Virus record (IMG/VR): IMGVR_UViG_3300046321_000114
Span: 1-20,022 of that record
DNA: 20,022 bases
Source: a virus
Direction: 5' to 3' (one strand)
Every line of letters starts with the position of its first letter. Position 1 is the stretch's first letter. The position numbers and the translations under genes are program-made. Shown piece after piece: positions 5,217-17,283 of the stretch. Below the pieces are notes generated by a model that was not told the DNA's origin, did not search any database, and was given only the letters and a program-made list of their open reading frames with translations.

Positions 5217-5303
5217 TTAATTTTTTATTTTATATTCCCAAAAATAACCACCTGCTGTTTTTCTTTTTCCTTGGCAAACTAGACCTATATTACTTAATGT
5301 AAT
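5217..5303 (-). pseudogene. frame-shifted C-terminal end of the GIY-YIG endonuclease (NUMOD1 half)
   Basis: In the -1 frame relative to the endonuclease, the minus strand encodes 28 further residues, beginning I-T-L-S-N-I-G-L and containing GKRKTAGGYFW, then stopping two bases before the terL ATG. This is the usual second half of a NUMOD1 DNA-binding domain, whose first half ends the frame at 5294. Joined after codon 159, the two would give a 187-residue protein with a complete NUMOD1. The junction is a short A-run (CTAAAATTA), so a one-base deletion, a sequencing error or a -1 frameshift could each explain it. Confidence 0.7.
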
Positions 5304-5779
5304 TTTAGTTTTTTATTTGCCTCTGTTAAAGATTTAAAACTTCCTATTATGTTTCCATTAAGGTCTTTTTGATTTACGGGTTTACTATTAGACTCTCTTA
5401 CTTTTTCTATATTTTCTTTACTAGGGCTGGAGTAGTCCCTGTATTTTTTACCTTTATGTATACTGCTTAGTAACTTTCTGGTACTTTGCTTTACAATTAA
5501 ACCATGAGTACCTTCTCCACCATCGGTCATATTAACTAGTAATCCATTACCTAAATCTAACCTACCATAAGATTTTATTAGAAACACCTCAAGTTCTTTA
5601 GCATCCTCATAACTTATATCTCTTGCTAATATTTCCACTGTATAATCAGACTTATTAGTTATACTTTTCCAATGCCTGTTTCTGTTGTTAAGTGAATAAG
5701 GTCTGTGACCATATTTTCCTATGCCTACATAAAATACTTTGTTATTGTCTACCCTTCTATGTCTATACACCACTGCCAT
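5294..5779 (-). CDS. GIY-YIG homing endonuclease (C-terminus displaced by a frameshift)
   Basis: Free-standing homing endonuclease of the GIY-YIG type, which cuts DNA at a specific site to spread its own gene. The N-terminus has the paired motifs in degenerate form, VYRHRR near residue 4 and FYVGIG near residue 16, then an Arg-rich segment and the acidic helix AKELEVFLI. The Gly-rich TDGGEGT follows. Residues of about 100-130 resemble NUMOD3 repeats, and the end (KPVNQKDLNGNIIGSFKSL) is the first half of NUMOD1. The frame stops early, and the rest of NUMOD1 continues in the -1 frame. It sits one base after the upstream gene and immediately before terL, consistent with insertion next to a conserved packaging gene. 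The nuclease part is intact; DNA recognition may be impaired. Confidence 0.85.
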   Translation of the reverse strand: MAVVYRHRRVDNNKVFYVGIGKYGHRPYSLNNRNRHWKSITNKSDYTVEILARDISYEDAKELEVFLIKSYGRLDLGNGLLVNMTDGGEGTHGLIVKQSTRKLLSSIHKGKKYRDYSSPSKENIEKVRESNSKPVNQKDLNGNIIGSFKSLTEANKKLKLH

Positions 5780-6991: not shown

Positions 6992-7651
6992 TTAACGTGA
7001 TACCCAATTTGTACCATTGTGCCACACTGGACAAACAACCGAACCTCCCCCAGTTAAAGCTCCTAAATATGTAGGTGCTATAGCGTCTGATACTGTAGCC
7101 ATATCATTTAGTACTCCTGTTGGTAATGTAGATACTGTATATACTGTATCTACATTACCAATAGGTATGACTATGTTTCCATCAATTCCTGCCTTGACAC
7201 CATTTATAGAAATTGGTATTGTGTATGTACCTGATATTGCAGCTGGTAATTCTAACTTATAATCTGTTTCACTTATTAAATTATTTTTGGATAATCTAGA
7301 TATACCACCATTACCAGACTTACTAAAATAAATTTCATCTTTATTAAGTAATATTTTATTATCTAAATCTGTACCAGCATAACCACTTGCTAAGACTGAC
7401 CCATACCCTAAAAAACATCTTAACTCGCTTCCATCACTATAACTTATAGGTAGATTTGTCTCATAACCAGCTTCTAACACTTGTTGTAATGTAGGTATAC
7501 TAGGAGTTCCTTCACCTGCTTGGCTAAGAAGCTTCTGAAGTCTAAACAGTACCGTTTTTCCTCCATCTTCACTATCATTACCTACAACAGTATCCTCTGT
7601 AACTGGTTCAGCCTTTATTGGGTACAGTGCTTTATTTTTTATTCTTCCCAT
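6992..7651 (-). CDS. fibre- or baseplate-type structural protein
   Basis: 219 residues. The N-terminus (KNKALYPIKAEPVTEDTVVG...EDGGKTVLF) resembles the virion-attachment start of many Bacteroidota phage fibre proteins. A Gly/Ser/Asn-rich beta-structured middle follows. The C-terminal 50 residues (VYTVSTLPTG, then ATVSDAIAPTYLG, GGGS, PVWHNGTNWV) match a cap found at the ends of many phage fibres and virion proteins. Its role is probably host attachment or virion decoration. It follows the spanin-like gene with a one-base gap. A 42-bp near-perfect palindrome inside the gene separates the variable body from the conserved cap. Confidence 0.75.
   Translation of the reverse strand: MGRIKNKALYPIKAEPVTEDTVVGNDSEDGGKTVLFRLQKLLSQAGEGTPSIPTLQQVLEAGYETNLPISYSDGSELRCFLGYGSVLASGYAGTDLDNKILLNKDEIYFSKSGNGGISRLSKNNLISETDYKLELPAAISGTYTIPISINGVKAGIDGNIVIPIGNVDTVYTVSTLPTGVLNDMATVSDAIAPTYLGALTGGGSVVCPVWHNGTNWVSR
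7120..7161. repeat. 42-bp near-perfect palindrome inside the fibre gene
   Basis: The sequence begins TTGGTAATGTAGATAC and ends with its exact reverse complement. The 10 central bases also pair, apart from one T/T mismatch on each side of the axis. Because of the symmetry, both strands encode nearly the same peptide here (GNVDTVYTVSTLP). It lies at the boundary between the fibre body and the C-terminal cap. Confidence 0.9.
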
Positions 7652-9592: not shown

Positions 9593-10186
9593 GTCATTAT
9601 TCATCTTCTTGATAATATCCATGTAGTAGTTATTGATTCTAGGTGCATCTTTCCTCGCCAACTCATTTGATACTGGATTCATTGGTATCTCATCGACCCC
9701 ACAAGCATACCTGTGCATTTTGTTACACATGATTTTTGCTTTTTGGGTTAATGTGTATAAGGTGTGAGTCTTAGCAGTTTTTAATCTCCAGACCTTTACC
9801 CAACCTTCATCTTCAAACTTTGTAAGAGTTTTTACTGAATACAAACCTAAAAGTTTGTGGTAATCATCAAACTGCTTTCTGGAAAAAGCTCCTATACCAT
9901 AAAGGTACAACAAGAACTCAATCTCTGGTTTGCTTAACTCTGGGTAATTTTCTACTGCCCACTTAAACACAACTCTAATATACTTCAAAAAGTCATACTC
10001 TACCCTAGACCTAAATCTTGGATAAGGTTCTTTTGTGTTAGTTTTTATAGTATTACCATAACCGTCCTTGTACGAATGGTGTTTTTCTATTCTAGCCTTA
10101 GCTCCAGCTTTACCAGCCTTGCCCTGCTTTTCTTCTAACTCTCTTACTTTCTCTCTGTGCCACGGTAGGCTTCCTATTTTTGCCAT
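9572..10186 (-). CDS. winged-helix-type DNA-binding protein
   Basis: 204 residues when started at 10186. The basic Gly/Lys-rich N-terminus contains GKAGKAGAKARIEKHH. Residues of about 60-150 are helical and end in a helix-turn-wing pattern (LLGLYSVKTLTKFEDEGWVKVWR, then HTLYTLTQKAKIMCNKMHR), like MarR/PadR-type regulators. It may regulate phage genes or act in packaging; the sequence does not decide. The longer frame from 10204 is rejected because its first codons overlap the promoter element at 10202-10209. It forms a transcript of its own that ends at the hairpin at 9565. Confidence 0.7.
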   Translation of the reverse strand: MAKIGSLPWHREKVRELEEKQGKAGKAGAKARIEKHHSYKDGYGNTIKTNTKEPYPRFRSRVEYDFLKYIRVVFKWAVENYPELSKPEIEFLLYLYGIGAFSRKQFDDYHKLLGLYSVKTLTKFEDEGWVKVWRLKTAKTHTLYTLTQKAKIMCNKMHRYACGVDEIPMNPVSNELARKDAPRINNYYMDIIKKMNNDKAPAEE

Positions 10187-10201
10187 TGAATTTAATTTTA
10201 G

Positions 10202-10209
10202 CAAAGATA
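10202..10209 (-). promoter_or_regulatory. promoter element for the winged-helix gene
   Basis: The minus strand reads TATCTTTG 16 bases before the ATG at 10186. The leader is therefore very short, and the ATG at 10204 is excluded as a start. Confidence 0.55.
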
Positions 10210-10228
10210 CAAAAATAAAATAACTTTG

Positions 10229-10302
10229 AAATACTGGTGGGATTCGAACCCACGACCTTCAGTTTTGCAGACCTCTTCCTTAGACCACTCGGACACAGTA
10301 TA
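10229..10302 (-). tRNA. tRNA-Cys (anticodon GCA)
   Basis: The anticodon loop is CTGCAAA with anticodon GCA. The T-arm is GTGGG-TTCGAAT-CCCAC. The acceptor TATACTG pairs with CAGTATT except at the first pair (T/T). The discriminator is U, as expected for Cys. The anticodon stem is weak, with one or two mismatches. CCA is not encoded. One base separates it from tRNA-Phe. Confidence 0.8.
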
Positions 10303-10303
10303 G

Positions 10304-10376
10304 TGGGACAGGTTGGTTTCGAACCAACTCCTTTGACTTTTCAAACCAATGCTTCTACCAAGTTAGCTTCTGACCC
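10304..10376 (-). tRNA. tRNA-Phe (anticodon GAA)
   Basis: Acceptor GGGTCAG pairs with CTGTCCC with one T/T mismatch. The T-arm is GTTGG-TTCGAAA-CCAAC, the anticodon loop is TTGAAAA with GAA, and the discriminator is A. CCA is not encoded. Confidence 0.85.
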
Positions 10377-10381
10377 TTTTA

Positions 10382-10457
10382 CACAAATGGAAGGATTTGA
10401 ACCTTCAAGCTAGGTTTTGGAGACCTAACTGCACAGCCAACGCTCATAAGTATTTGC
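10382..10457 (-). tRNA. tRNA-Trp (anticodon CCA)
   Basis: The anticodon stem TAGGT/ACCTA is perfect around the loop CTCCAAA. The T-arm is GAAGG-TTCAAAT-CCTTC. Acceptor GCAAATA pairs with CATTTGT except next to the T-arm, with a G-U first pair. The discriminator is G. The D-arm is poorly paired. Its first base appears to be shared with the discriminator of tRNA-Asn. Confidence 0.75.
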
Positions 10458-10529
10458 GGACTAGGTGGGATTCGAACCCACGACCCGATGGTTAACAACC
10501 AACCGCTCTAACCCCTGAGCTACATATCC
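10457..10529 (-). tRNA. tRNA-Asn (anticodon GTT)
   Basis: The D-stem GCTC/GAGC is perfect. The anticodon loop is TTGTTAA with GTT. The T-arm is GTGGG-TTCGAAT-CCCAC. Acceptor GGATATG against CTAGTCC has two mismatches. The discriminator would be G at 10457. Confidence 0.85.
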
Positions 10530-10579
10530 ATTATTTATTTTACAACTTTATAACCACTATTAATTAAAACCTTAATACA

Positions 10580-10587
10580 CAAACTTA
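10580..10587 (-). promoter_or_regulatory. candidate promoter element for the Asn-Trp-Phe-Cys tRNA cluster
   Basis: The minus strand reads TAAGTTTG (TAnnTTTG) about 50 bases before tRNA-Asn, in the 135-base gap that separates it from tRNA-Tyr. No -33 box is evident. Confidence 0.3.
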
Positions 10588-10664
10588 TAAAACAGTCTAG
10601 TGATAAATCCCCTACACCCCATTTCCTAATCAATTACCAAAGCCTTGTACGTTGTGTAATTTTG

Positions 10665-10748
10665 TGGGATGAGGAGGACTCGAACCTCCATTCCATGCGG
10701 ATTATTAGATTTACAGTCTAACGCCTCTTCCAACCGAGCAACCACCCC
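10665..10748 (-). tRNA. tRNA-Tyr (anticodon GTA)
   Basis: This 84-base gene has a long variable arm. The anticodon loop is CTGTAAA with GTA. The T-arm is GGAGG-TTCGAGT-CCTCC. Acceptor GGGGTGG pairs with TCATCCC using two G-U pairs. The discriminator is A. A strong terminator lies 11 bases upstream, so it needs its own promoter, which I could not see. Confidence 0.88.
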
Positions 10749-10759
10749 AATATAAAATA

Positions 10760-10789
10760 AAAAAGCCCTATCGTATGACAGGGCTTTTT
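10760..10789. terminator. strong intrinsic terminator upstream of the tRNA block
   Basis: A perfect 10-bp stem, AAAAAGCCCT / AGGGCTTTTT, has a 10-base loop and T-runs on both strands. It should stop leftward transcription from the gene at 10913-11263 before the tRNAs. The stretch from 10790 to 10912 holds only a small 6-bp hairpin (TTCGAG/CTCGAA) and no gene. Confidence 0.85.
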
Positions 10790-10912
10790 CTATTGCGTAC
10801 TTTTAAAAACTATACTCCAGTTTTACCACATAGATTACCCCGTTCGAGAGAACTCGAATACCAGAAGCAATTATTTGTAAAACTTGTTTTCATTTTTATT
10901 ATCTTTGTTTGT

Positions 10913-11263
10913 TTAATTTACCCCTTGCTCGCTTATGGCATCTGTCTCCGATACGTTTGGTTTTGTTTCTATGTAAAGAAACGTATATGTTCCTGTTTCC
11001 ATTACAGTTGTAACTGTGAATGAATGGATTTGGAAAGGAATTGCACCTGTAGCTAAAACAGCTTTAGCTATTACATCAGGGACTCCAACTGCACCTAACT
11101 TCGCATACTCACCTTCTAATCTTGTTACAACTTCTATAGCTGCTTTAAAAGCATCTAGTGGGGCTGCTATTTGTCCTAACTCTGAACCATCTATTGCTCC
11201 AGATGCATTATCAAATGCGATTTTTACGTTTCTATACTCCGAAATTGCGTTTTGTCTTGCCAT
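10913..11263 (-). CDS. hypothetical protein
   Basis: 116 residues, not recognised. The N-terminal 70 residues are Ala/Glu/Ile-rich and mainly helical (AAPLDAFKAAIEVVTRLEGEYAKLG). The last 40 look beta-structured (FQIHSFTVTTVMETGTYTFLYIETK). There is no signal peptide or membrane segment. Codons are somewhat richer in G and C than those of its neighbours. It is a single-gene unit with a TAnnTTTG element at 11302-11309 upstream and the terminator at 10760-10789 downstream. A small virion or head-associated protein is possible, but nothing proves it. Confidence 0.7.
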   Translation of the reverse strand: MARQNAISEYRNVKIAFDNASGAIDGSELGQIAAPLDAFKAAIEVVTRLEGEYAKLGAVGVPDVIAKAVLATGAIPFQIHSFTVTTVMETGTYTFLYIETKPNVSETDAISEQGVN

Positions 11264-11301
11264 GTTTTATATTTTTATGAGTTTGTTACATTATTGAGAG
11301 G

Positions 11302-11309
11302 CAAAGATA
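11302..11309 (-). promoter_or_regulatory. promoter element for the gene at 10913-11263
   Basis: The minus strand reads TATCTTTG 39 bases before the ATG. The region where a -33 box should lie is T-rich without a clear TTG. Confidence 0.5.
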
Positions 11310-11326
11310 AGCAATTTATTTTAATG

Positions 11327-11560
11327 TTAAAAAACTGGGTTATGACATGCCTTAATAAATGACCTAAGTCTCTTATTTTCAACCACTAAGGGGTGTTTTT
11401 CTGAATAAGATTTTACGTCAGATTTAAGTGGTTCTTTTGTTCTTTCTAGGAAATCCTTATACCTTTGAACCTCATCATCAATCATATCTGGATTATCCAG
11501 TATTACTCGGTGCAAACATTCTATGAAAGCTGCTATATTAAAAACTATTCTACGTTTCAT
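11327..11560 (-). CDS. hypothetical protein
   Basis: 77 residues, charged, probably all helical and without membrane segments. It has RRIVFNIAAFIECLHRVIL at the start, acidic and Lys-rich helices in the middle, and FIKACHNPVF at the end. I do not recognise a family. It is preceded by a TAnnTTTG element at 11583-11590 and lies between the gene at 10913-11263 and the serine recombinase in the same orientation. Confidence 0.65.
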   Translation of the reverse strand: MKRRIVFNIAAFIECLHRVILDNPDMIDDEVQRYKDFLERTKEPLKSDVKSYSEKHPLVVENKRLRSFIKACHNPVF

Positions 11561-11582
11561 ATTTTAATTTATTGATTATACA

Positions 11583-11590
11583 CAAAGGTA
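11583..11590 (-). promoter_or_regulatory. promoter element for the gene at 11327-11560
   Basis: The minus strand reads TACCTTTG 22 bases before the ATG and just after the recombinase stop codon region. No -33 box is seen. Confidence 0.5.
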
Positions 11591-11596
11591 ATGATT

Positions 11597-12295
11597 TTAT
11601 TTATATCTATTATATAACCTTTTCGTCTGAACTTCAGAGAATTGATTTCCTCTACTGGTCTTAAATCCAGATTCATTTAATTTCTGAGTAATTTGCTTGA
11701 AATTGTTTGACTCAGCAAGTGCCACGATAAATGCCCCAGCACGTACGTTATCTTCGTTTTCCAAAGCCTTTTTCACTCTTACTTGTATTGATATATCTCT
11801 AGAGTGTTGTGAAAGGTTCTCGGGCTTACCTAATGACTTCACGATATTACCAGACTTGGAGATGTGGGTTTCACCCTTCTCAATTTTGGTTTTTATCTCA
11901 GCCAAGGCATCCTTTGTTCTCTGACGAATTTTCTTTCTCTCATCTTTAGCAAGTGAGAATTTGATGTCCTTTACAAACTCTGGGTCATGTGGTGATGAAC
12001 ACTCTATGAAGTCAATCTTTGAATCTTCAAGAATCTGTCTGAACTTAAAACCACCACGGGAGATACGGGACATTTCTTTTACAACCAAAGTTGCTTTATT
12101 CACTTTACAAGCTTCAATTGCTGCAATCATACCTTTACGGGACTCTGAAGCCCCTGATTCAATATCGTGAAATTCTCCCACTAATTTCCCATTTTGTGAA
12201 ACAAAGTTCAGAACCGATGTTGCTTGTGCCTTTAATCCAAGACCCGAATTTCCTTGCTCCTCTGTCGATACTCTGTAATATGCTACGTAATTCAT
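11597..12295 (-). CDS. small serine recombinase (resolvase/invertase type)
   Basis: 232 residues from the ATG at 12295, which has the typical leader ending AAACAAAACAAA. The N-terminus YYRVSTEEQ holds the catalytic serine S10 with R8. KEMSRISR near residues 73-80 matches the conserved K-x-D-R-L-x-R block, although Asp is replaced by Ser. A long helix follows (residues of about 115-140). The C-terminal segment, with NFKQITQKLNESGFKTSRG, is a helix-turn-helix as in the resolvase 'recombinase' domain. It cuts and rejoins DNA at paired short sites, giving resolution, inversion or integration. It lacks the long C-terminal region of large serine integrases. A longer frame from 12382 is rejected because it overlaps a better small gene and joins no conserved sequence. 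Confidence 0.9.
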   Translation of the reverse strand: MNYVAYYRVSTEEQGNSGLGLKAQATSVLNFVSQNGKLVGEFHDIESGASESRKGMIAAIEACKVNKATLVVKEMSRISRGGFKFRQILEDSKIDFIECSSPHDPEFVKDIKFSLAKDERKKIRQRTKDALAEIKTKIEKGETHISKSGNIVKSLGKPENLSQHSRDISIQVRVKKALENEDNVRAGAFIVALAESNNFKQITQKLNESGFKTSRGNQFSEVQTKRLYNRYK

Positions 12296-12311
12296 TTTGT
12301 TTTGTTTTAAA

Positions 12312-12395
12312 TTATTCTTCAAATCTTTCTGGATAGTAATACCTCTCAAAACCATCATCTTGGTCGGGCATATCTTCATCATACCAATCTGCCAT
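12312..12395 (-). CDS. 27-residue acidic peptide upstream of the recombinase
   Basis: A short frame starts MADWYDEDMPDQDDGF and ends in a Tyr/Glu/Arg-rich tail. It stops 16 bases before the recombinase ATG. It lies in a different frame from the recombinase and begins about 30 bases after the best promoter of the left block. Its length is unusual, but its position and start context argue for translation. It could be a leader peptide or a small regulator of the recombinase. Confidence 0.5.
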   Translation of the reverse strand: MADWYDEDMPDQDDGFERYYYPERFEE

Positions 12396-12425
12396 ATTAT
12401 TTATTATTTAAATTATTTGATGAGG

Positions 12426-12456
12426 CAAAGATATAATAACGTTTGTTAATCTGCAA
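12426..12456 (-). promoter_or_regulatory. promoter of the recombinase operon
   Basis: The minus strand has TATCTTTG (12433-12426) and, 19 bases upstream, TTGC (12456-12453). This is a good two-box Bacteroidota promoter directed leftward into the acidic peptide and recombinase genes. Confidence 0.7.
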
Positions 12457-12489
12457 GCCTTTTTTAATTTATTTATACTATAAGATTTC

Positions 12490-12564
12490 TCTATGGTAAA
12501 TTAAATCTCCATAGTAATTACCTATAATAGATAACCTTATACTATAGCTAAAATCTATGGTAAA
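12490..12564 (+). repeat. CTATGG repeats in the divergent region (possible operators)
   Basis: TCTATGGTAAA occurs at 12490-12500 and again at 12554-12564. An inverted copy, CCATAG, lies at 12509-12514. They sit between the leftward recombinase promoter and the rightward element at 12613, a natural place for a regulator that controls both. Confidence 0.45.
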
Positions 12565-12612
12565 CACTGGCTTTATAGAGAAAAAGTATACAGACCATAA
12601 GAAACTTTTACT

Positions 12613-12620
12613 TATCTTTG
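12613..12620 (+). promoter_or_regulatory. rightward promoter element for an untranslated transcript
   Basis: TATCTTTG lies on the plus strand, pointing into a region with no good gene that ends at the terminator at 13090. No -33 TTG is visible. Confidence 0.45.
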
Positions 12621-12785
12621 TGGCTCATTATAAAACAAGGGAGTGCATACCCATGATAGATTAATGGACTATCGACTATATTTATCTTCGAGGGAAGAAT
12701 GTTCAAGTAGTTATGCATGCGAGGGGAAGTTTTTAACTTCTTTTGGTGAGTTACCATCGGGTAGCAACAAACAACTGTTGAAGGG

Positions 12786-12930
12786 ATACCATTTTAAAGG
12801 GTCAGTATTTTTTTTAAAAAGGGTTTATTCTTAACAGGCTTCGCTAAAGGGATTGATTTCTATTTTTTTATAAATAGTTCTCTTTTCCTTTCAGCGAAGC
12901 TGTATCTAAGAAAACCTTTTAAATGGTAGT
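12786..12930. repeat. large imperfect inverted repeat
   Basis: Three paired blocks nest. TACCATTTTAAAGG pairs with CCTTTTAAATGGTA at the base, GGTTTATTCTTA with TAAGAAAACC in the middle, and GCTTCGCT with AGCGAAGC at the top. The apical region has CTATTT/AAATAG. The AAAGG-type 5' segment occurs twice (near 12797 and 12819), so the 3' CCTTTT can pair in two exclusive ways. It could be an RNA switch, or a recombination site for the nearby serine recombinase. Confidence 0.7.
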
Positions 12931-13089
12931 ATTATATAATAATATATATTATAATAAATATTCTAATAGATAAAACTTATAGTAATACAAGTTAAGAAAT
13001 AGACAAAAAGTATACATGACAAAGAGAACATGTATAAGAAATAGAGAAATTTATACATAAAGAAAAGTCCAGACTAAAATAAATTCAAG

Positions 13090-13112
13090 ACCCTGTTAAT
13101 TCAGGGTTTTTT
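13090..13112 (+). terminator. intrinsic terminator
   Basis: ACCCTG/CAGGGT stem with a 6-base loop followed by six T's on the plus strand. There is no T-run in the other direction. Confidence 0.8.
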
Positions 13113-13174
13113 CGTTTCTAAACACTTCTGTTTAGCAAGATGTGAATATAAATAGGGTTTTAAGGTCAGTTTTT

Positions 13175-13213
13175 AGGGTTTTAGGCTCGAAAATGGCTTT
13201 AAAACCCTTTTTT
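13175..13213 (+). terminator. second intrinsic terminator
   Basis: AGGGTTTTAGGC pairs with GCTTTAAAACCCT, followed by a T-run. It is a rightward terminator 60 bases after the first. Together they insulate the downstream region. Confidence 0.7.
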
Positions 13214-13289
13214 GTGACTTCACTTCGTGAGATATTTGCTTGACAGTAGTTTTTTGAAGATTTTATTGATGTGGGGTGAAGAATAGAAG

Positions 13290-13302
13290 TGACAAGTTGT
13301 CA
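13290..13302. promoter_or_regulatory. dyad operator copy 1
   Basis: TGACAAGTTGTCA is a perfect 6-bp inverted repeat around one central base. It is the first of three similar boxes. Confidence 0.55.
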
Positions 13303-13443
13303 TGTTATGTCAGGTGTTGTAAATGTTGGGGAGGAAAGGGGCGATTTACGGAGTTGGTTGACAAAATCGTTTGATAAAAAATTTTATAAAAAAATTTTTT
13401 GAAGGGGCTCTTTTGAAAAATATTTACAAAAATCGGGAGATTA

Positions 13444-13473
13444 GGGACTATATAGGGTATCGGGGGTCTGGGG
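13444..13473 (+). other. G-run cluster, possible G-quadruplex
   Basis: Four G-runs (3, 3, 5 and 4 G's) have spacers of 8, 4 and 3 bases on the plus strand. The first loop is longer than the classical limit. It is notable in such AT-rich DNA. Confidence 0.4.
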
Positions 13474-13590
13474 TGAAAAGGAAAACGGGATTTTTCCTAC
13501 GGGGTGGGGTCTCTGATTCTGGTTTTGCTGGTTTTCGTTTCAAATTTTCTTTTCGTAGTTGTCTGGTTCTCAGCCCGTTACGTGTACTCT

Positions 13591-13632
13591 CGTGTGTGTG
13601 CGTGTGCGTGTGTACGTGTGTGCGTGTGTATA
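13591..13632. repeat. 42-bp alternating purine-pyrimidine tract
   Basis: Every base alternates pyrimidine/purine, mostly GT steps with interspersed CG and TA. This is a sequence class that can adopt left-handed Z-DNA under negative supercoiling. It is absent elsewhere in the window. Confidence 0.85.
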
Positions 13633-13799
13633 ATAATAGCCTTGTGTAATAGCCTTGTAATGTGGTGTTATATCTGGGTTGATAACGTTTGTTGAATAGA
13701 TGTTTAACAAAGGTTATTGAATTTGTAACCCTGATTAACTACTTTTTATTTTTGTCTGGAGTAAGGCACTCCGATAGATTAAAGACTGTAGGCAAAGAA

Positions 13800-13807
13800 C
13801 AAAGATA
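13800..13807 (-). promoter_or_regulatory. possible leftward promoter element
   Basis: The minus strand reads TATCTTTG just left of operator copy 2, which would lie in its spacer. No leftward gene follows. A hairpin GGAGT/ACTCC lies about 40 bases downstream. Weak support. Confidence 0.3.
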
Positions 13808-13813
13808 TTTATG

Positions 13814-13826
13814 TGACATGTTGTCA
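13814..13826. promoter_or_regulatory. dyad operator copy 2
   Basis: TGACATGTTGTCA has 5-bp arms around TGT. It is the second of three boxes. It lies in the spacer of the leftward TAnnTTTG element at 13800. Confidence 0.55.
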
Positions 13827-13892
13827 TGTTTAACTCTTTTAGAAAAAACTTTCAAAAAAGTTTCCCAGTAAAATCAGGGCTTGACGTAAAAC

Positions 13893-13905
13893 TGACAAAT
13901 TGTCT
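13893..13905. promoter_or_regulatory. dyad operator copy 3, next to the rightward early promoter
   Basis: TGACAAATTGTCT has perfect GACAA/TTGTC arms and abuts the -33 box of the promoter for the right gene block. It is well placed for a repressor. Confidence 0.6.
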
Positions 13906-13906
13906 C

Positions 13907-13938
13907 TTGTTTATAACATTTTAATTACCGTATCTTTG
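13907..13938 (+). promoter_or_regulatory. main rightward promoter of the right gene block
   Basis: TTGT (13907-13910), 20 bases, then TATCTTTG (13931-13938). It is a two-box Bacteroidota promoter followed by a leader of about 50 bases and the first rightward gene at 13996. The dyad at 13893 touches its upstream edge. Confidence 0.75.
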
Positions 13939-13995
13939 CACCGTTCACTACAACGAACAACACATTATTAGCTATTAATATATAACACACACGTT

Positions 13996-14238
13996 ATGAA
14001 TAACTTAACACAAAGTGAGAAACTCGAAATAGCAATTGAAAGGCTATCTGACTACAAAACAAATGATAAATTTGGCTATCACTACATGATAAAACAAATA
14101 AACCATTCAAAGTATTTTTACAGTTATGAACAGTCGCACACCAGAAAAGAATGGTTAGCCCTTCTAATTGAAGAGATTAAAACCCCAGAAGGTTGGAGCA
14201 AGTTAGTAAGGTTAAGCACTTACAAAGATTTACAATAA
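13996..14238 (+). CDS. hypothetical protein, first gene of the rightward block
   Basis: 80 residues, charged, without signal or membrane segment. It has a helical start (LTQSEKLEIAIERLSDY), an aromatic-rich middle (FGYHYMIKQINHSKYFYSYE) and a C-terminal helix with EWLALLIEEIKTPEGW. I do not recognise a family. As the first gene after the operator-controlled promoter at 13907, it is expected early in infection, where small phage proteins often bind host machinery. That role is inferred from position only. Confidence 0.75.
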   Translation: MNNLTQSEKLEIAIERLSDYKTNDKFGYHYMIKQINHSKYFYSYEQSHTRKEWLALLIEEIKTPEGWSKLVRLSTYKDLQ

Positions 14239-14265
14239 TAAAAACTCAAACAAAACCAAACAATT

Positions 14266-14352
14266 ATGAAGGTATCAACAATTATTTTCACATTAGTTAT
14301 TATTTCAATAATAGTATTTTTACACTTTTCAACCCCAATTAACCACCGATAA
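14266..14352 (+). CDS. 28-residue single-span membrane peptide
   Basis: An ATG with the leader AAACAAAACCAAACAATT opens a 28-codon frame: MKVST, then an uninterrupted Ile/Val/Leu/Phe segment of about 15 residues, then a short polar tail ending N-H-R. It fits snugly between two genes (27 bases after one, 11 before the next). It is predicted to be an inner-membrane peptide of unknown function. It is short, but its composition and spacing support it. Confidence 0.55.
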   Translation: MKVSTIIFTLVIISIIVFLHFSTPINHR

Positions 14353-14363
14353 AAACAGACAAA

Positions 14364-14573
14364 ATGAAAGACGCAAAACAATTATTAGTAGAATTTTTGG
14401 ACTTAATAGAAACAACCACGACTGGTAACCAAGTCCAATTCTCAGTAGATTACCAAAAGGATGAAATCATTATAACAAAAGCACCAAGTGGATTTTTAAG
14501 GTTTTTGTATCAAAACAATAAGTTTTGCGCACATTTGAGACCTGAAGGGCTGAAGGTACAACTGTTTAAATAA
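14364..14573 (+). CDS. hypothetical protein
   Basis: 69 residues. It has an acidic helix at the start (DAKQLLVEFLDLIETTTTG), then beta-like segments (VQFSVDYQKDEIIITKAPSG) and a basic-aromatic end (FLRFLYQNNKFCAHLRPEG). Not recognised. Its stop codon lies seven bases before the first hammerhead-like element, so that element is in its 3' untranslated region and cleavage would cut the message 30 bases after the stop. Confidence 0.65.
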   Translation: MKDAKQLLVEFLDLIETTTTGNQVQFSVDYQKDEIIITKAPSGFLRFLYQNNKFCAHLRPEGLKVQLFK

Positions 14574-14579
14574 TATAAT

Positions 14580-14643
14580 CGAAACGGACTATAAACGTCC
14601 GTCAATAGGTAGCTTTTAAACCTATTCTGAAGAGTTAAGCAAA
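14580..14643 (+). ncRNA. hammerhead ribozyme candidate, copy 1
   Basis: All core positions are present with no gaps. C-GAAA at 14580-14584 is followed by stem III CGGAC/GTCCG (14585-14589 with 14597-14601), then U14602-C14603 (the cleavage site, after C17). Stem I is AATAGGT/ACCTATT (14604-14610 with 14620-14626), then CUGAAGA (14627-14633) and G14634, pairing with C14580 as base pair 10.1-11.1. Stems I and III are closed by loops, so this is the permutation open at stem II. Stem II itself is weak in this copy, with only the first pair clear. Self-cleavage is predicted from the motif and is untested. Confidence 0.75.
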
Positions 14644-14674
14644 CGTTCTTTTATAAACTGTAAATTATACAAAT

Positions 14675-15100
14675 ATGGAAATTCAAAAATTCGTAGCATC
14701 TTTGCTACAAAATGGTGGAGCAAGTTTTAATCTGGTAACAAAAGATTTAAATCCTAAAACTGGTTATTTGGTTTCAACCCTCTCAAACGAATTAAAAATG
14801 CCTTTGGAAGCCCTTAATATTGGTTTAGTTCTGGATTATATACACAACAAAAAACTTTTATTGAATGAGTCCGATTTTTATTTAGGTGGTTGGATTAATG
14901 ATGATTTAGTTTATTTAGATGTATCACAAAGATACCAAGACAAACGAAATGCCTTGAAAAAAGGAATCCAGAACAAACAAATAGCCATTTTTGATTGTTA
15001 CAAACAAGAGGTTATTTATTTGCCAGAGGTTCAAAAAACGGGTACTGAGACTCAAAAACAGTCTTTTATTACTCAATGGATTGATAAAAATGTATTATAA
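14675..15100 (+). CDS. hypothetical phage protein encoded between the two ribozyme copies
   Basis: 141 residues, soluble. The pattern begins with FVASLLQNGGASFNL, then NPKTGYLVS near residue 30. DFYLGGWINDDLVYLDVS lies near 67-85, DKRNALKKGIQNKQIAIFD near 89-107, and a polar C-terminus follows. I recall proteins with this G-Y-x-V-S / GGW / vylDvS / Q-A-I-F-D layout in diverse phages and mobile elements, without a known function. The gene is bounded by a hammerhead-like element 71 bases before its ATG (from the predicted cleavage site) and another four bases after its start of 3' UTR. Double cleavage would therefore release its message as a 522-nt RNA. Confidence 0.85.
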   Translation: MEIQKFVASLLQNGGASFNLVTKDLNPKTGYLVSTLSNELKMPLEALNIGLVLDYIHNKKLLLNESDFYLGGWINDDLVYLDVSQRYQDKRNALKKGIQNKQIAIFDCYKQEVIYLPEVQKTGTETQKQSFITQWIDKNVL

Positions 15101-15165
15101 ACGAAACGGACTATAAACGTCCGTCAATAGGTAGCTTTTAAACCTATTCTGAAGAGTTAAGCAAA
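15095..15165 (+). ncRNA. hammerhead ribozyme candidate, copy 2
   Basis: The core is identical to copy 1 over 64 bases (15102-15165). GAAA is at 15103-15106, stem III CGGAC/GTCCG follows, cleavage is predicted after C15125, then come stem I AATAGGT/ACCTATT and CUGAAGA at 15149-15155. Here stem II is better: GTT (15156-15158) pairs with AAC (15100-15102), so part of the stem overlaps the stop codon of the upstream gene. After cleavage, the 3' end of the released RNA would carry GAAAC and stem III. Joining to its own 5' end would rebuild a complete hammerhead. Confidence 0.78.
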
Positions 15166-15217
15166 AACGTTCTTAGGTACTGTAAAATAAGGGATTTTAA
15201 AAATAATTCAAAATAAA

Positions 15218-15250
15218 TTTGGAATTAACAAATAAGTTTCCTTACCTTTG
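15218..15250 (+). promoter_or_regulatory. strong two-box promoter of the large untranslated region
   Basis: TTTG (15218-15221), 21 bases, then TACCTTTG (15243-15250). Both Bacteroidota boxes are present. The next gene starts only at 16214, so the main product appears to be RNA. Confidence 0.7.
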
Positions 15251-15256
15251 CTGAGC

Positions 15257-16165
15257 AAATAAGTTCTATTGACATAATGAAAAAGTGAATACGAATAGTA
15301 ATCTAATAGCCAGTCTAATTGATTACATTCAAAGCCCCAGTATTGTAAAGGTTTTTATAAAGACAACAAATAATGGTCATATCGTCCTCTTATAATGTTT
15401 CAACCCAACAAAATAGCAAGCTTTAAAAATACGTGAGATTTAAAATAAATCTAACATTTATCACTTTTTACTTGTGTAATTCAAAACTAATTTGTTACTT
15501 TGTATTGTCGATTAGGGTTAAGCCTCTTAACAACGACAAAAAATAAATGTTAAAAAGCTTGTGAGATTCAAAAGTATTTCAGTACTTTACAGAGTCAAGT
15601 AGTCAAAACGATACGGATGTTGAAGGACTACTATAAAAAAGATTAATACCGTTTGTAGATTTTTAACGGTTGTTGTATTGGGGTGGAGTTTTAAACAGTT
15701 GAGAAGTCAACACTAAAACATCGAAGCCAAACTTAACAACCAGACCTAACGACCTGACTGAGAAGGTATAATTTCAGTGATTCATTAGAGAGTCAATTCA
15801 AATAGAGAGTTTTTAACTAAGTTTGAAATCTAACCATAGTGGAGGAAATAAAATGGTGATAACAAGCCAGTCCTACGAAGCGTGAGTATTGGTGCATTAC
15901 ATTGCACATCCTGAAGAGAAAACCGCCAAAGTAGTAAAATCCAAAACGTTTGATAAGCACAATAAAGTTCTTCGGTGGTAGGTGCAACCATTCCTTGTAT
16001 GAGTGAAGTATAAAGACTACTCGTTAAGCAAGGTAACAGTAACTTGTAAGTTTGGTTCACTGTTATAAATAAATTCAACATATCAAATGTTGTCTCAGAT
16101 AAAAACTATAATAAAAAGCTTCCGACAATTTAGTTGTAGCATCAAAGCAATCGGAAGCACAAGCA
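15257..16165 (+). ncRNA. candidate large structured RNA (about 0.9 kb)
   Basis: No credible ORF lies on either strand, but many perfect local helices do. TTGTCG/CGACAA encloses GTTAAG/CTTAAC (15505-15539). Others are AGATTT/AAATCT (15436-15452), AAAGTA/TACTTT (15571-15588), AGTAGTC/GACTACT (15598-15632), ACCGTT/AACGGT (15648-15670), GTGCA/TGCAC (15892-15907), AACAGT/ACTGTT (near 16036-16065), CAACAT/ATGTTG (16076-16092) and GCTTCCGA/TCGGAAGC (16118-16158). GTGAGATT recurs at 15433 and 15561. A two-box promoter precedes it. Phages are known to carry giant structured RNAs (GOLLD, ROOL), and this could be of that kind or new. The 3' end is uncertain; it may continue into the gene at 16214 as a leader. 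Confidence 0.6.
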
Positions 16166-16213
16166 CTAATCAATCCAGTGCATCAAGTGATTGAAACCTT
16201 AAATTTATCTAAA

Positions 16214-16435
16214 ATGGCAAATTTTAAAACTCCAAATGGTGATTTTCACCTAATCGACAATGCAGGAAACCACTTCGTAAATAGAAAGTGTGTTAATCCA
16301 AAAACAACTGATTCACCAGAATACGGTCATATCGGAGCAACACACCCAGAAGAGAGTTTAAGAACTACACTACCAGAAGTTACTGGTAAAGTTCCTTACT
16401 TAATTGATGACGAAGGACGTTTTATCAGATTATAA
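16214..16435 (+). CDS. hypothetical protein
   Basis: 73 residues from the ATG at 16214 (MANFKTPNGDFHLID). The frame extends 12 codons upstream, but the first ATG lies in a hairpin region and the second has the better A-rich context. It is rich in Pro/Thr/Asn/Gly with short beta segments (GKVPYLIDDEGRFIRL at the end), and no membrane part. Not recognised. It is followed nine bases later by a strong terminator. A hairpin GCACT/AGTGC at 16163-16181 lies before it, so its expression may depend on the upstream structured RNA. Confidence 0.7.
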   Translation: MANFKTPNGDFHLIDNAGNHFVNRKCVNPKTTDSPEYGHIGATHPEESLRTTLPEVTGKVPYLIDDEGRFIRL

Positions 16436-16443
16436 AATTATAT

Positions 16444-16470
16444 AAGCCACCTTACAAGGGTGGCTTTTTT
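16444..16470 (+). terminator. intrinsic terminator
   Basis: AAGCCACC/GGTGGCTT stem of 8 bp with a 7-base loop and a T-run. It ends the transcript of the structured RNA and the gene at 16214. Confidence 0.85.
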
Positions 16471-16493
16471 GTATCACATTAATTAAAACCAAA

Positions 16494-16589
16494 ATGAAAA
16501 ACTTAAAAGTAGTATTCGCAGTAGTTTTAACCTCTTTATGGTTATTAGGTACAATTGTGTTATTGTTTAACTTGGATAAAATCAACTAA
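16494..16589 (+). CDS. 31-residue single-span membrane peptide
   Basis: An ATG with an A-rich leader (AATTAAAACCAAA) opens MKNLK, followed by a hydrophobic helix of about 20 residues (VVFAVVLTSLWLLGTIVLLF) and a polar end N-L-D-K-I-N. The stop is one base before the ATG of the next gene, an operon-like junction. It is similar in build to the peptide at 14266. Function is unknown. Confidence 0.6.
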   Translation: MKNLKVVFAVVLTSLWLLGTIVLLFNLDKIN

Positions 16590-16590
16590 G

Positions 16591-16902
16591 ATGAAAAATC
16601 ACTTTGAATATAAAGGGGTGTTCTTCTCAGAAGGAACTCCAACTGAATTATGTGATTTACTCTTAAAATTAAAAGAGGACAAAACCAGAGTTGTATTCGA
16701 TTTTGGAGATGTTAAGACTAATCAAAGCTGGGGCGACCGCTATGATATAGCAGGTAGAATAGGTAAAAGTAATGGAGTAAAACCAGTGTTAATATTACTA
16801 AACAAAGTCACATCCAGTGGTGGTGGCTCTATTCTCACAAATTTTATATTATCAGTAAAAGAATCCAAAGGTAAAAAATTATTGTACCAAAACAAAGTAT
16901 AA
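16591..16902 (+). CDS. conserved-type phage/plasmid protein of unknown function
   Basis: 103 residues from the ATG at 16591; the frame opens earlier, but the conserved part and spacing favour this start. It has FDFGDVKTNQSWGDRYDIAG near residues 36-55, then IGKSNGVKPVLILLNKVTSSGGGSIL and an end of ILSVKESKGKKLLYQ. I recall this F-D-x-G-D-x-x-T-G/N-x-S-W ... GGG-x-I-L pattern from many small phage and plasmid proteins, all uncharacterised. It directly follows the membrane peptide, with a one-base gap. Confidence 0.8.
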   Translation: MKNHFEYKGVFFSEGTPTELCDLLLKLKEDKTRVVFDFGDVKTNQSWGDRYDIAGRIGKSNGVKPVLILLNKVTSSGGGSILTNFILSVKESKGKKLLYQNKV

Positions 16903-16906
16903 ACTT

Positions 16907-16920
16907 TAATCACTCTCACC
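16907..16920 (+). promoter_or_regulatory. shared leader motif, copy 1
   Basis: TAATCACTCTCACC directly precedes the ATG at 16921. It is one of four near-identical leaders in the right block. Confidence 0.5.
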
Positions 16921-17283
16921 ATGAGACAAAGATACATCTACAGAGTTGAACACCCAGACGGAAAAGGAATATTTCGTTGTTGTGTTTGGAAAAAAGTAGA
17001 AGAGAATACCAGAATTATAGAATGTCACGGGGGTTTTAATACCCCAGTGTGTGATGGTTTGAATCTACGTAAAAATAATAAAGTTTGGTTTTGTGCTTAC
17101 AAAGCAAAGAAAGACCTACTTTTTTGGGTGAACTTAGAAGACCTAAAATATGTAGTCAACACTCTTAACATGAAGATTTTTAAAATAACCGTAAAAGAGT
17201 ATCAAATTGGTAAAGACCAAGCAATTTACCTAAAGGAATCCATCTTGAAAAAAGAGGATATTACAAACAAGATAATAAAATAG
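16921..17283 (+). CDS. hypothetical protein
   Basis: 120 residues. The first half is beta-rich with Cys and aromatic residues (YIYRVEHPDGKGIFRCCVWKK, then ECHGGFNTPVCDGL near residues 38-51). The middle has VWFCAYKAKKDLLFWV, and a Lys/Ile-rich helical end follows. Four Cys lie at residues 20, 21, 38 and 47 or so, but they do not form a clear zinc motif. It resembles small phage proteins that I cannot assign a function. It starts after the shared TAATCACTCTCACC leader, and the next gene begins four bases after its stop. Confidence 0.78.
   Translation: MRQRYIYRVEHPDGKGIFRCCVWKKVEENTRIIECHGGFNTPVCDGLNLRKNNKVWFCAYKAKKDLLFWVNLEDLKYVVNTLNMKIFKITVKEYQIGKDQAIYLKESILKKEDITNKIIK

Follow-up and report, generated by a model that had tools for sequence, protein, structure and literature searches.

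Results

The locus and its genes

The window, meaning the whole stretch of DNA analysed here, is the 20,022-nt virus record IMGVR_UViG_3300046321_000114 (positions 1 to 20,022). Its terminase is ~48% identical to the terminases of Flavobacterium elemo-group phages and also matches those of Cellulophaga phages; the host range of the window phage is probably flavobacteria. A blastn search of the window against annotated phages returned short low-complexity matches only. Between two promoter-like sites (13907-13938 and 15219-15250), putative matches to the Bacteroidetes promoter consensus (TTG...TAnnTTTG), lie ORFs of 80, 69, and 141 aa on the rightward strand, and a 64-base block stands once behind the 69-aa ORF and once behind the 141-aa ORF. 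The features are:

13907..13938, + strand, putative Bacteroidetes-type promoter-like site (TTG...TAnnTTTG) upstream of the unit
13996..14238, + strand, ORF of 80 aa without a family match
14364..14573, + strand, ORF of 69 aa without a family match, stop codon TAA at 14571-14573
14571..14667, + strand, left copy of a 97-nt direct repeat, holding ribozyme copy 1
14580..14640, + strand, predicted type II hammerhead copy 1, complete core, Rfam Hammerhead_II 28.2 bits
14675..15100, + strand, flanked ORF of 141 aa, phrog_17808 (E = 3e-8, function unknown), stop codon TAA at 15098-15100
15093..15189, + strand, right copy of the 97-nt direct repeat, holding ribozyme copy 2
15102..15162, + strand, predicted type II hammerhead copy 2, complete core, Rfam Hammerhead_II 31.7 bits
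15219..15250, + strand, putative Bacteroidetes-type promoter-like site directly past copy 2, where the next unit begins

The original prediction placed two identical 64-base hammerhead blocks at 14580-14643 and 15102-15165, around a phage gene. The blocks lie at exactly these positions with no difference between the 64-mers, and the match of the intervening 141-aa ORF to PHROG family phrog_17808 bears out its description as a phage gene; the 141-aa protein had no relatives in viral_contigs. The distance from the stop codons, given in that prediction as four to seven bases, has to be corrected: C11.1 follows the stop after 6 bases in copy 1 and after 1 base in copy 2. The two copies of the 97-nt repeat are spaced 522 nt apart and are 88% identical overall and 100% identical over 64 nt. 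When the adjoining 2-nt gap is counted against the ribozyme, matches stand at 64 to 2 in the block and at 36 to 24 in the flanks (Fisher test: P = 2e-7). The identity of the 64-mers would reflect either selection on the ribozymes or a short conversion tract.

Elsewhere in the window, four tRNA genes and a fifth weak one lie on the minus strand (10229-10748) between the structural genes and the recombinase, and the related phage G010 has a similar tRNA cluster. A 25-nt inverted repeat without spacer (7116-7165, 92% complementary) is found within the ORF 6992-7651, and an ORF adjoining the terminase gene has a homing endonuclease PHROG match (5294-5779, minus strand).

Structure of the two copies

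Both copies have the core order C11.1, GAA-A15.1, stem III (CGGAC/GUCCG), U16.1, C17, stem I (AAUAGGU/ACCUAUU), CUGAAGA, and G10.1, with no extra base at any junction. The parts, all on the + strand, are:

Copy 1, 5' side: C11.1 14580, GAAA 14581-14584, stem III 14585-14589/14597-14601, U16.1 14602
Copy 1, 3' side: C17 14603, stem I 14604-14610/14620-14626, CUGAAGA 14627-14633, G10.1 14634
14612..14640, predicted pseudoknot of copy 1, loop I GCUU 14612-14615 with tail AAGC 14637-14640
Copy 2, 5' side: C11.1 15102, GAAA 15103-15106, stem III 15107-15111/15119-15123, U16.1 15124
Copy 2, 3' side: C17 15125, stem I 15126-15132/15142-15148, CUGAAGA 15149-15155, G10.1 15156, stem II GUU/AAC
15134..15162, predicted pseudoknot of copy 2, loop I GCUU 15134-15137 with tail AAGC 15159-15162

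Each copy contains C3 U4 G5 A6 N7 G8 A9, G12 A13 A14 A15, U16, and H17, together with the core-adjacent pairs N1.1-N2.1, N10.1-N11.1, and A15.1-U16.1. Stems I and III are closed by loops and are also present in the minimum-free-energy folds, and stem II is open. The claim of a complete core without extra bases and with stem II open was thus verified at every position, and in both closed stems, of each copy. Cleavage is predicted after C17, at 14603 in copy 1 and 15125 in copy 2. No U run, as expected of an intrinsic terminator, was seen by eye behind either hairpin.

Stem II had been named as the weak point, and it has indeed only 1 contiguous pair in copy 1 and 3 in copy 2. The original prediction did not include a pseudoknot, but our analysis revealed one: GCUU in loop I (AGCUUUUAA) can form 4 bp with AAGC in the tail of both copies, and a loop I/3'-tail pseudoknot of at least 4 pairs is a feature of the majority, not of all, of type II hammerheads. 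This pairing would account for the weakness of stem II. In PMC3088659, a one-pair stem II combined with a 6-bp pseudoknot gave cleavage at >1.2 per minute, and with 4 bp it was ~20 times slower; cleavage by copy 1, which combines a one-pair stem II with a 4-bp pseudoknot, is therefore plausible but may be slow.

Chance expectation and Rfam scores

The core was considered very unlikely to arise by chance, which our simulation confirms. Of the cores that arose in 60 Mb of order-2 Markov sequence built from the window, five had stems of 4 bp or more, and in none were both stems 5 bp or longer. In the fetched loci, the majority of which had been selected with the true core, that core matched 364 times and decoy cores 0-2 times. 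A chance repeat is ruled out by the Markov sequence and the decoy cores.

The suggested run of the Rfam hammerhead model on both blocks gave a divided answer. Hammerhead_II (RF02276) is the top match in the correct register for both copies when 141-base stretches are searched (28.2 bits, E = 3e-4; 31.7 bits, E = 4e-5), but neither score reaches the gathering cut-off of 37 bits, which is a detection threshold and not a structural criterion. A scan of the whole window returned no hammerhead match at E <= 1, its filters losing both copies. Among control hammerheads from other phage contigs (L003-L006), two scored above the Rfam cut-off and several true-looking ones below it.

Covariation with an orthologue

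A single hammerhead occupies the same map position in the related phage IMGVR_UViG_3300020045_002727 (TerL 57% identical). A stop codon precedes it by a few bases, the homologous serine recombinase is ~1.9 kb away (the distance in the window is 2.2 kb), and promoter-like sites come after it. Four such Bacteroidetes-type sites lie directly past the orthologous hammerhead at L036:6861-7342, and near-repeat blocks (AAACTTTAAACTACATTTGC) contain two of the four. Compared with the window, seven of the 14 stem and closing pairs have changed on both sides and 100% remain paired; sliding the partner by 1-3 columns reduced pairing to 22-38%, and none of 500 shuffles was as high. Of the three sequences compared, two have the same ribozyme, so this amounts to one evolutionary comparison, a clean one. 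Loop I of the orthologue differs at one of nine bases and an extra tail base pairs with that change, the pseudoknot changing in step from GCUU/AAGC (4 bp) in the window to GCGUU/AACGC (5 bp) in the orthologue. Compensatory change thus appears to have kept the structure.

As judged from sequence and pairing, the assignment of both blocks as type II hammerhead ribozymes is supported by every criterion of Perreault et al. 2011 (PMC3088659). The hammerhead identity claimed in the original prediction is likewise upheld by those criteria, by the top Rfam match, and by an orthologue whose pairs have all survived seven two-sided changes.

The ribozyme is unevenly distributed among related phages. Relatives with 66% TerL identity have no hammerhead in the readable part of the early region, and none was found in the corresponding region of the related phages G006 and G007, so the ribozyme would be dispensable. 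The pattern CTGANGAGNNAA...GCAAACGTTC recovered only the G010 orthologue from viral contigs, the rest being chance matches without hammerhead form; a laxer pattern gave the same outcome. Model R2 found no further copies across the clade, and its 13.8-bit match in L041 was rejected as not a hammerhead. Hammerhead_II gave no matches over the records of the TerL relatives, in a scan that also missed the window's own two copies.

Position of type II hammerheads in phage contigs

Each of two pattern scans of phage contigs returned at least 120 stretches, so type II hammerheads are abundant there. The patterns say nothing on stop or start codons. A structural scan of the fetched loci yielded 381 candidates among the matches listed, 354 of them distinct, in a sample that is not unbiased, the loci having been chosen by patterns for certain stem III sequences, mostly G+C-rich ones. 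With frames of at least 60 codons considered, 251 of the 354 among the matches listed start 0-10 nt behind a stop codon, in contrast to 25 in antisense and 9 at random positions; the peak lies at 1 nt (61/354) and 2 nt (69/354). When one hammerhead per contig is taken, 71% among the matches listed start 0-10 nt after a stop. A Shine-Dalgarno-like site with a start codon follows within 60 nt downstream in 81% of the matches listed, compared with 25% at random positions. No locus carries hammerheads on both strands (0/218 among the matches listed).

Neighbouring hammerheads among the matches listed have a median spacing of 520 nt (522 in the window pair), and of the 152 pairs no more than 1,500 nt apart, 127 enclose a single ORF that starts past the first ribozyme and ends 0-10 nt before the second. 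Their median identity is 73%; ribozymes are 71% identical within one contig vs 65% between contigs (both among the matches listed).

At the extreme, in IMGVR_UViG_3300017605_000570 (L291, contig 9941-17199, minus strand), ~21 hammerheads occur in a row in ~6.2 kb, one per small gene, a count that sets aside one overlapping duplicate. Most lie 0-6 nt past a stop and ~20 nt before the next start, and a scan of seven of the encoded proteins returned two weak PHROG matches, both of unknown function. Other arrays were also noted. IMGVR_UViG_3300046782_000291 (contig 40226-45399, minus strand; L005, L022-L034) has 12 type II hammerheads in 5.2 kb, each directly before a start codon, with a nearly constant stem I and a variable stem III; Rfam at E <= 5 listed only three hammerheads of L005 from this record. 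IMGVR_UViG_2974779249_000001, IMGVR_UViG_3300000217_000001, and three more records (G017-G021) have arrays of type II hammerheads, ~8 to 11 each, all on a single strand.

Discussion

Proposed processing into single-gene mRNAs

The best explanation, to which we assign a probability of about 0.7, is that the ribozymes cut the operon transcript into single-gene mRNAs with hairpin ends. Its basis is the core, the stems, the covariation, the position at stop codons, and the layout across many phages, and from these we infer cleavage, a role in mRNA punctuation, and protective ends. Processing of phage tandems into single-gene mRNAs was proposed in 2011 (PMC3088659), and the succession of stop, ribozyme, ribosome-binding site, and start fits it.

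Both predicted hammerheads are on the strand of the rightward genes, and each would fold while the polycistronic RNA is being made: stems I and III would be closed, stem II would be very short, and the pseudoknot would keep stems I and II side by side. Cuts after C17 at 14603 and 15125 would free a 522-nt message of the 141-aa gene from the upstream genes and from anything downstream. With stem II open, the cut would fall between two closed hairpins: the upstream product would end in hairpin III just past the stop codon with a 2',3'-cyclic phosphate, and the downstream product would begin with hairpin I and a 5'-OH. From what is generally known of RNA decay, exonucleases and the decay pathways that sense a 5'-monophosphate would act poorly on both ends. 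Copy 2 is followed by a promoter-like site and no nearby gene, so its cut would only trim the 3' end.

Alternative readings

The abundance of starts 1-2 nt past a stop (61 and 69 of 354 among the matches listed), within the footprint of a terminating ribosome, invites the reading that the ribozymes act in cis to reduce or gate expression; cleavage might, for instance, be blocked while GAAA and stem III are covered by a ribosome that is terminating at the adjacent stop. Genome compactness or minimal 3' ends could also give the tight spacing, and we consider this regulatory reading unlikely. A slightly different emphasis would make the repeats mainly recombination handles, between which cassettes of gene plus hammerhead are gained and lost, cleavage being a side effect. 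The window pair is 100% identical, same-contig ribozymes are somewhat more alike (71% vs 65% among the matches listed), and the related phage with one hammerhead at the site (IMGVR_UViG_3300020045_002727) has no detectable homologue of the 141-aa gene, all of which would suit such exchange. However, most neighbours are too unlike for homologous exchange, compensatory changes and core conservation need selection on RNA, and cassette exchange needs no placement 1-2 bases behind a stop codon, so that we regard recombination as quite improbable as the main role.

Least probable, and very much so, is that the identical ribozymes excise a 522-nt RNA that is circularised by the back-reaction or an RtcB-type ligase, to give a viroid-like RNA or a circular mRNA that encodes the 141-aa protein. 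Closure would join ends from two identical ribozymes and so restore a complete hammerhead, its stem II being the 3-bp one of copy 2; tandem hammerheads of viroids and retrozymes behave in this way (PMC4918200, PMC7761336). Against it, the 522-nt unit carries a coding gene, phage neighbours mostly differ in sequence (median identity 73% among the matches listed), and circular or spliced products of phage tandems were sought and not found (PMC3088659).

Relation to known systems

The window pair resembles the type II hammerheads of bacteria and prophages (RF02276; PMC3088659) in its core, its open stem II down to one pair, its loop I/3'-tail pseudoknot, and its several copies flanking single phage genes; it differs in being AU-rich, below the Rfam gathering score, and identical over 64 nt, and in its phage, the relatives of which have Flavobacterium and Cellulophaga as hosts. 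As early as 2011, single prophage genes were reported to lie between tandem hammerheads, and native tandem arrays self-cleave in vitro (PMC3088659). The Agrobacterium tumefaciens triple hammerhead around ardA also surrounds single phage genes, and it cleaves both in vitro and when transcribed in E. coli (PMC3088659); the genes differ, those of the window being small genes of unknown function with ribozymes 1-6 nt past their stops.

Retrozymes and viroid-like RNAs (PMC4918200, PMC7761336) likewise contain hammerheads in tandem, separated by a few hundred bases, whose cuts would release an RNA of unit length, but these hammerheads are type III or I around a non-coding unit propagated by reverse transcription or rolling circle, whereas the window has type II ribozymes in a DNA phage and a unit filled by the 141-aa ORF with its PHROG match. 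Theta ribozymes of gut phages (PMC10879173) are self-cleaving too and are thought to process phage transcripts, but have an HDV-like fold and are linked to tRNA genes.

Implications

The role of hammerheads in prokaryotes and phages has been called an open question (PMC6155905). The term "stop codon" is absent from PMC3088659 and PMC6155905 in the open-access literature, and we claim no novelty for the placement. More tentatively than for processing at this locus, and on balance doubtfully, type II hammerheads abutting stop codons might be a widespread phage mRNA punctuation, in arrays of up to ~20 genes, in which the terminating ribosome gates the cut and so couples 3'-end formation to translation. 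The window pair, a clear AU-rich case from a phage lineage whose cultured relatives are Flavobacterium and Cellulophaga phages, shows that hammerheads of this kind escape Rfam's cut-off. The survey turns the statement that hammerheads flank phage genes into a precise rule: stop, ribozyme, ribosome-binding site, and start, gene after gene.
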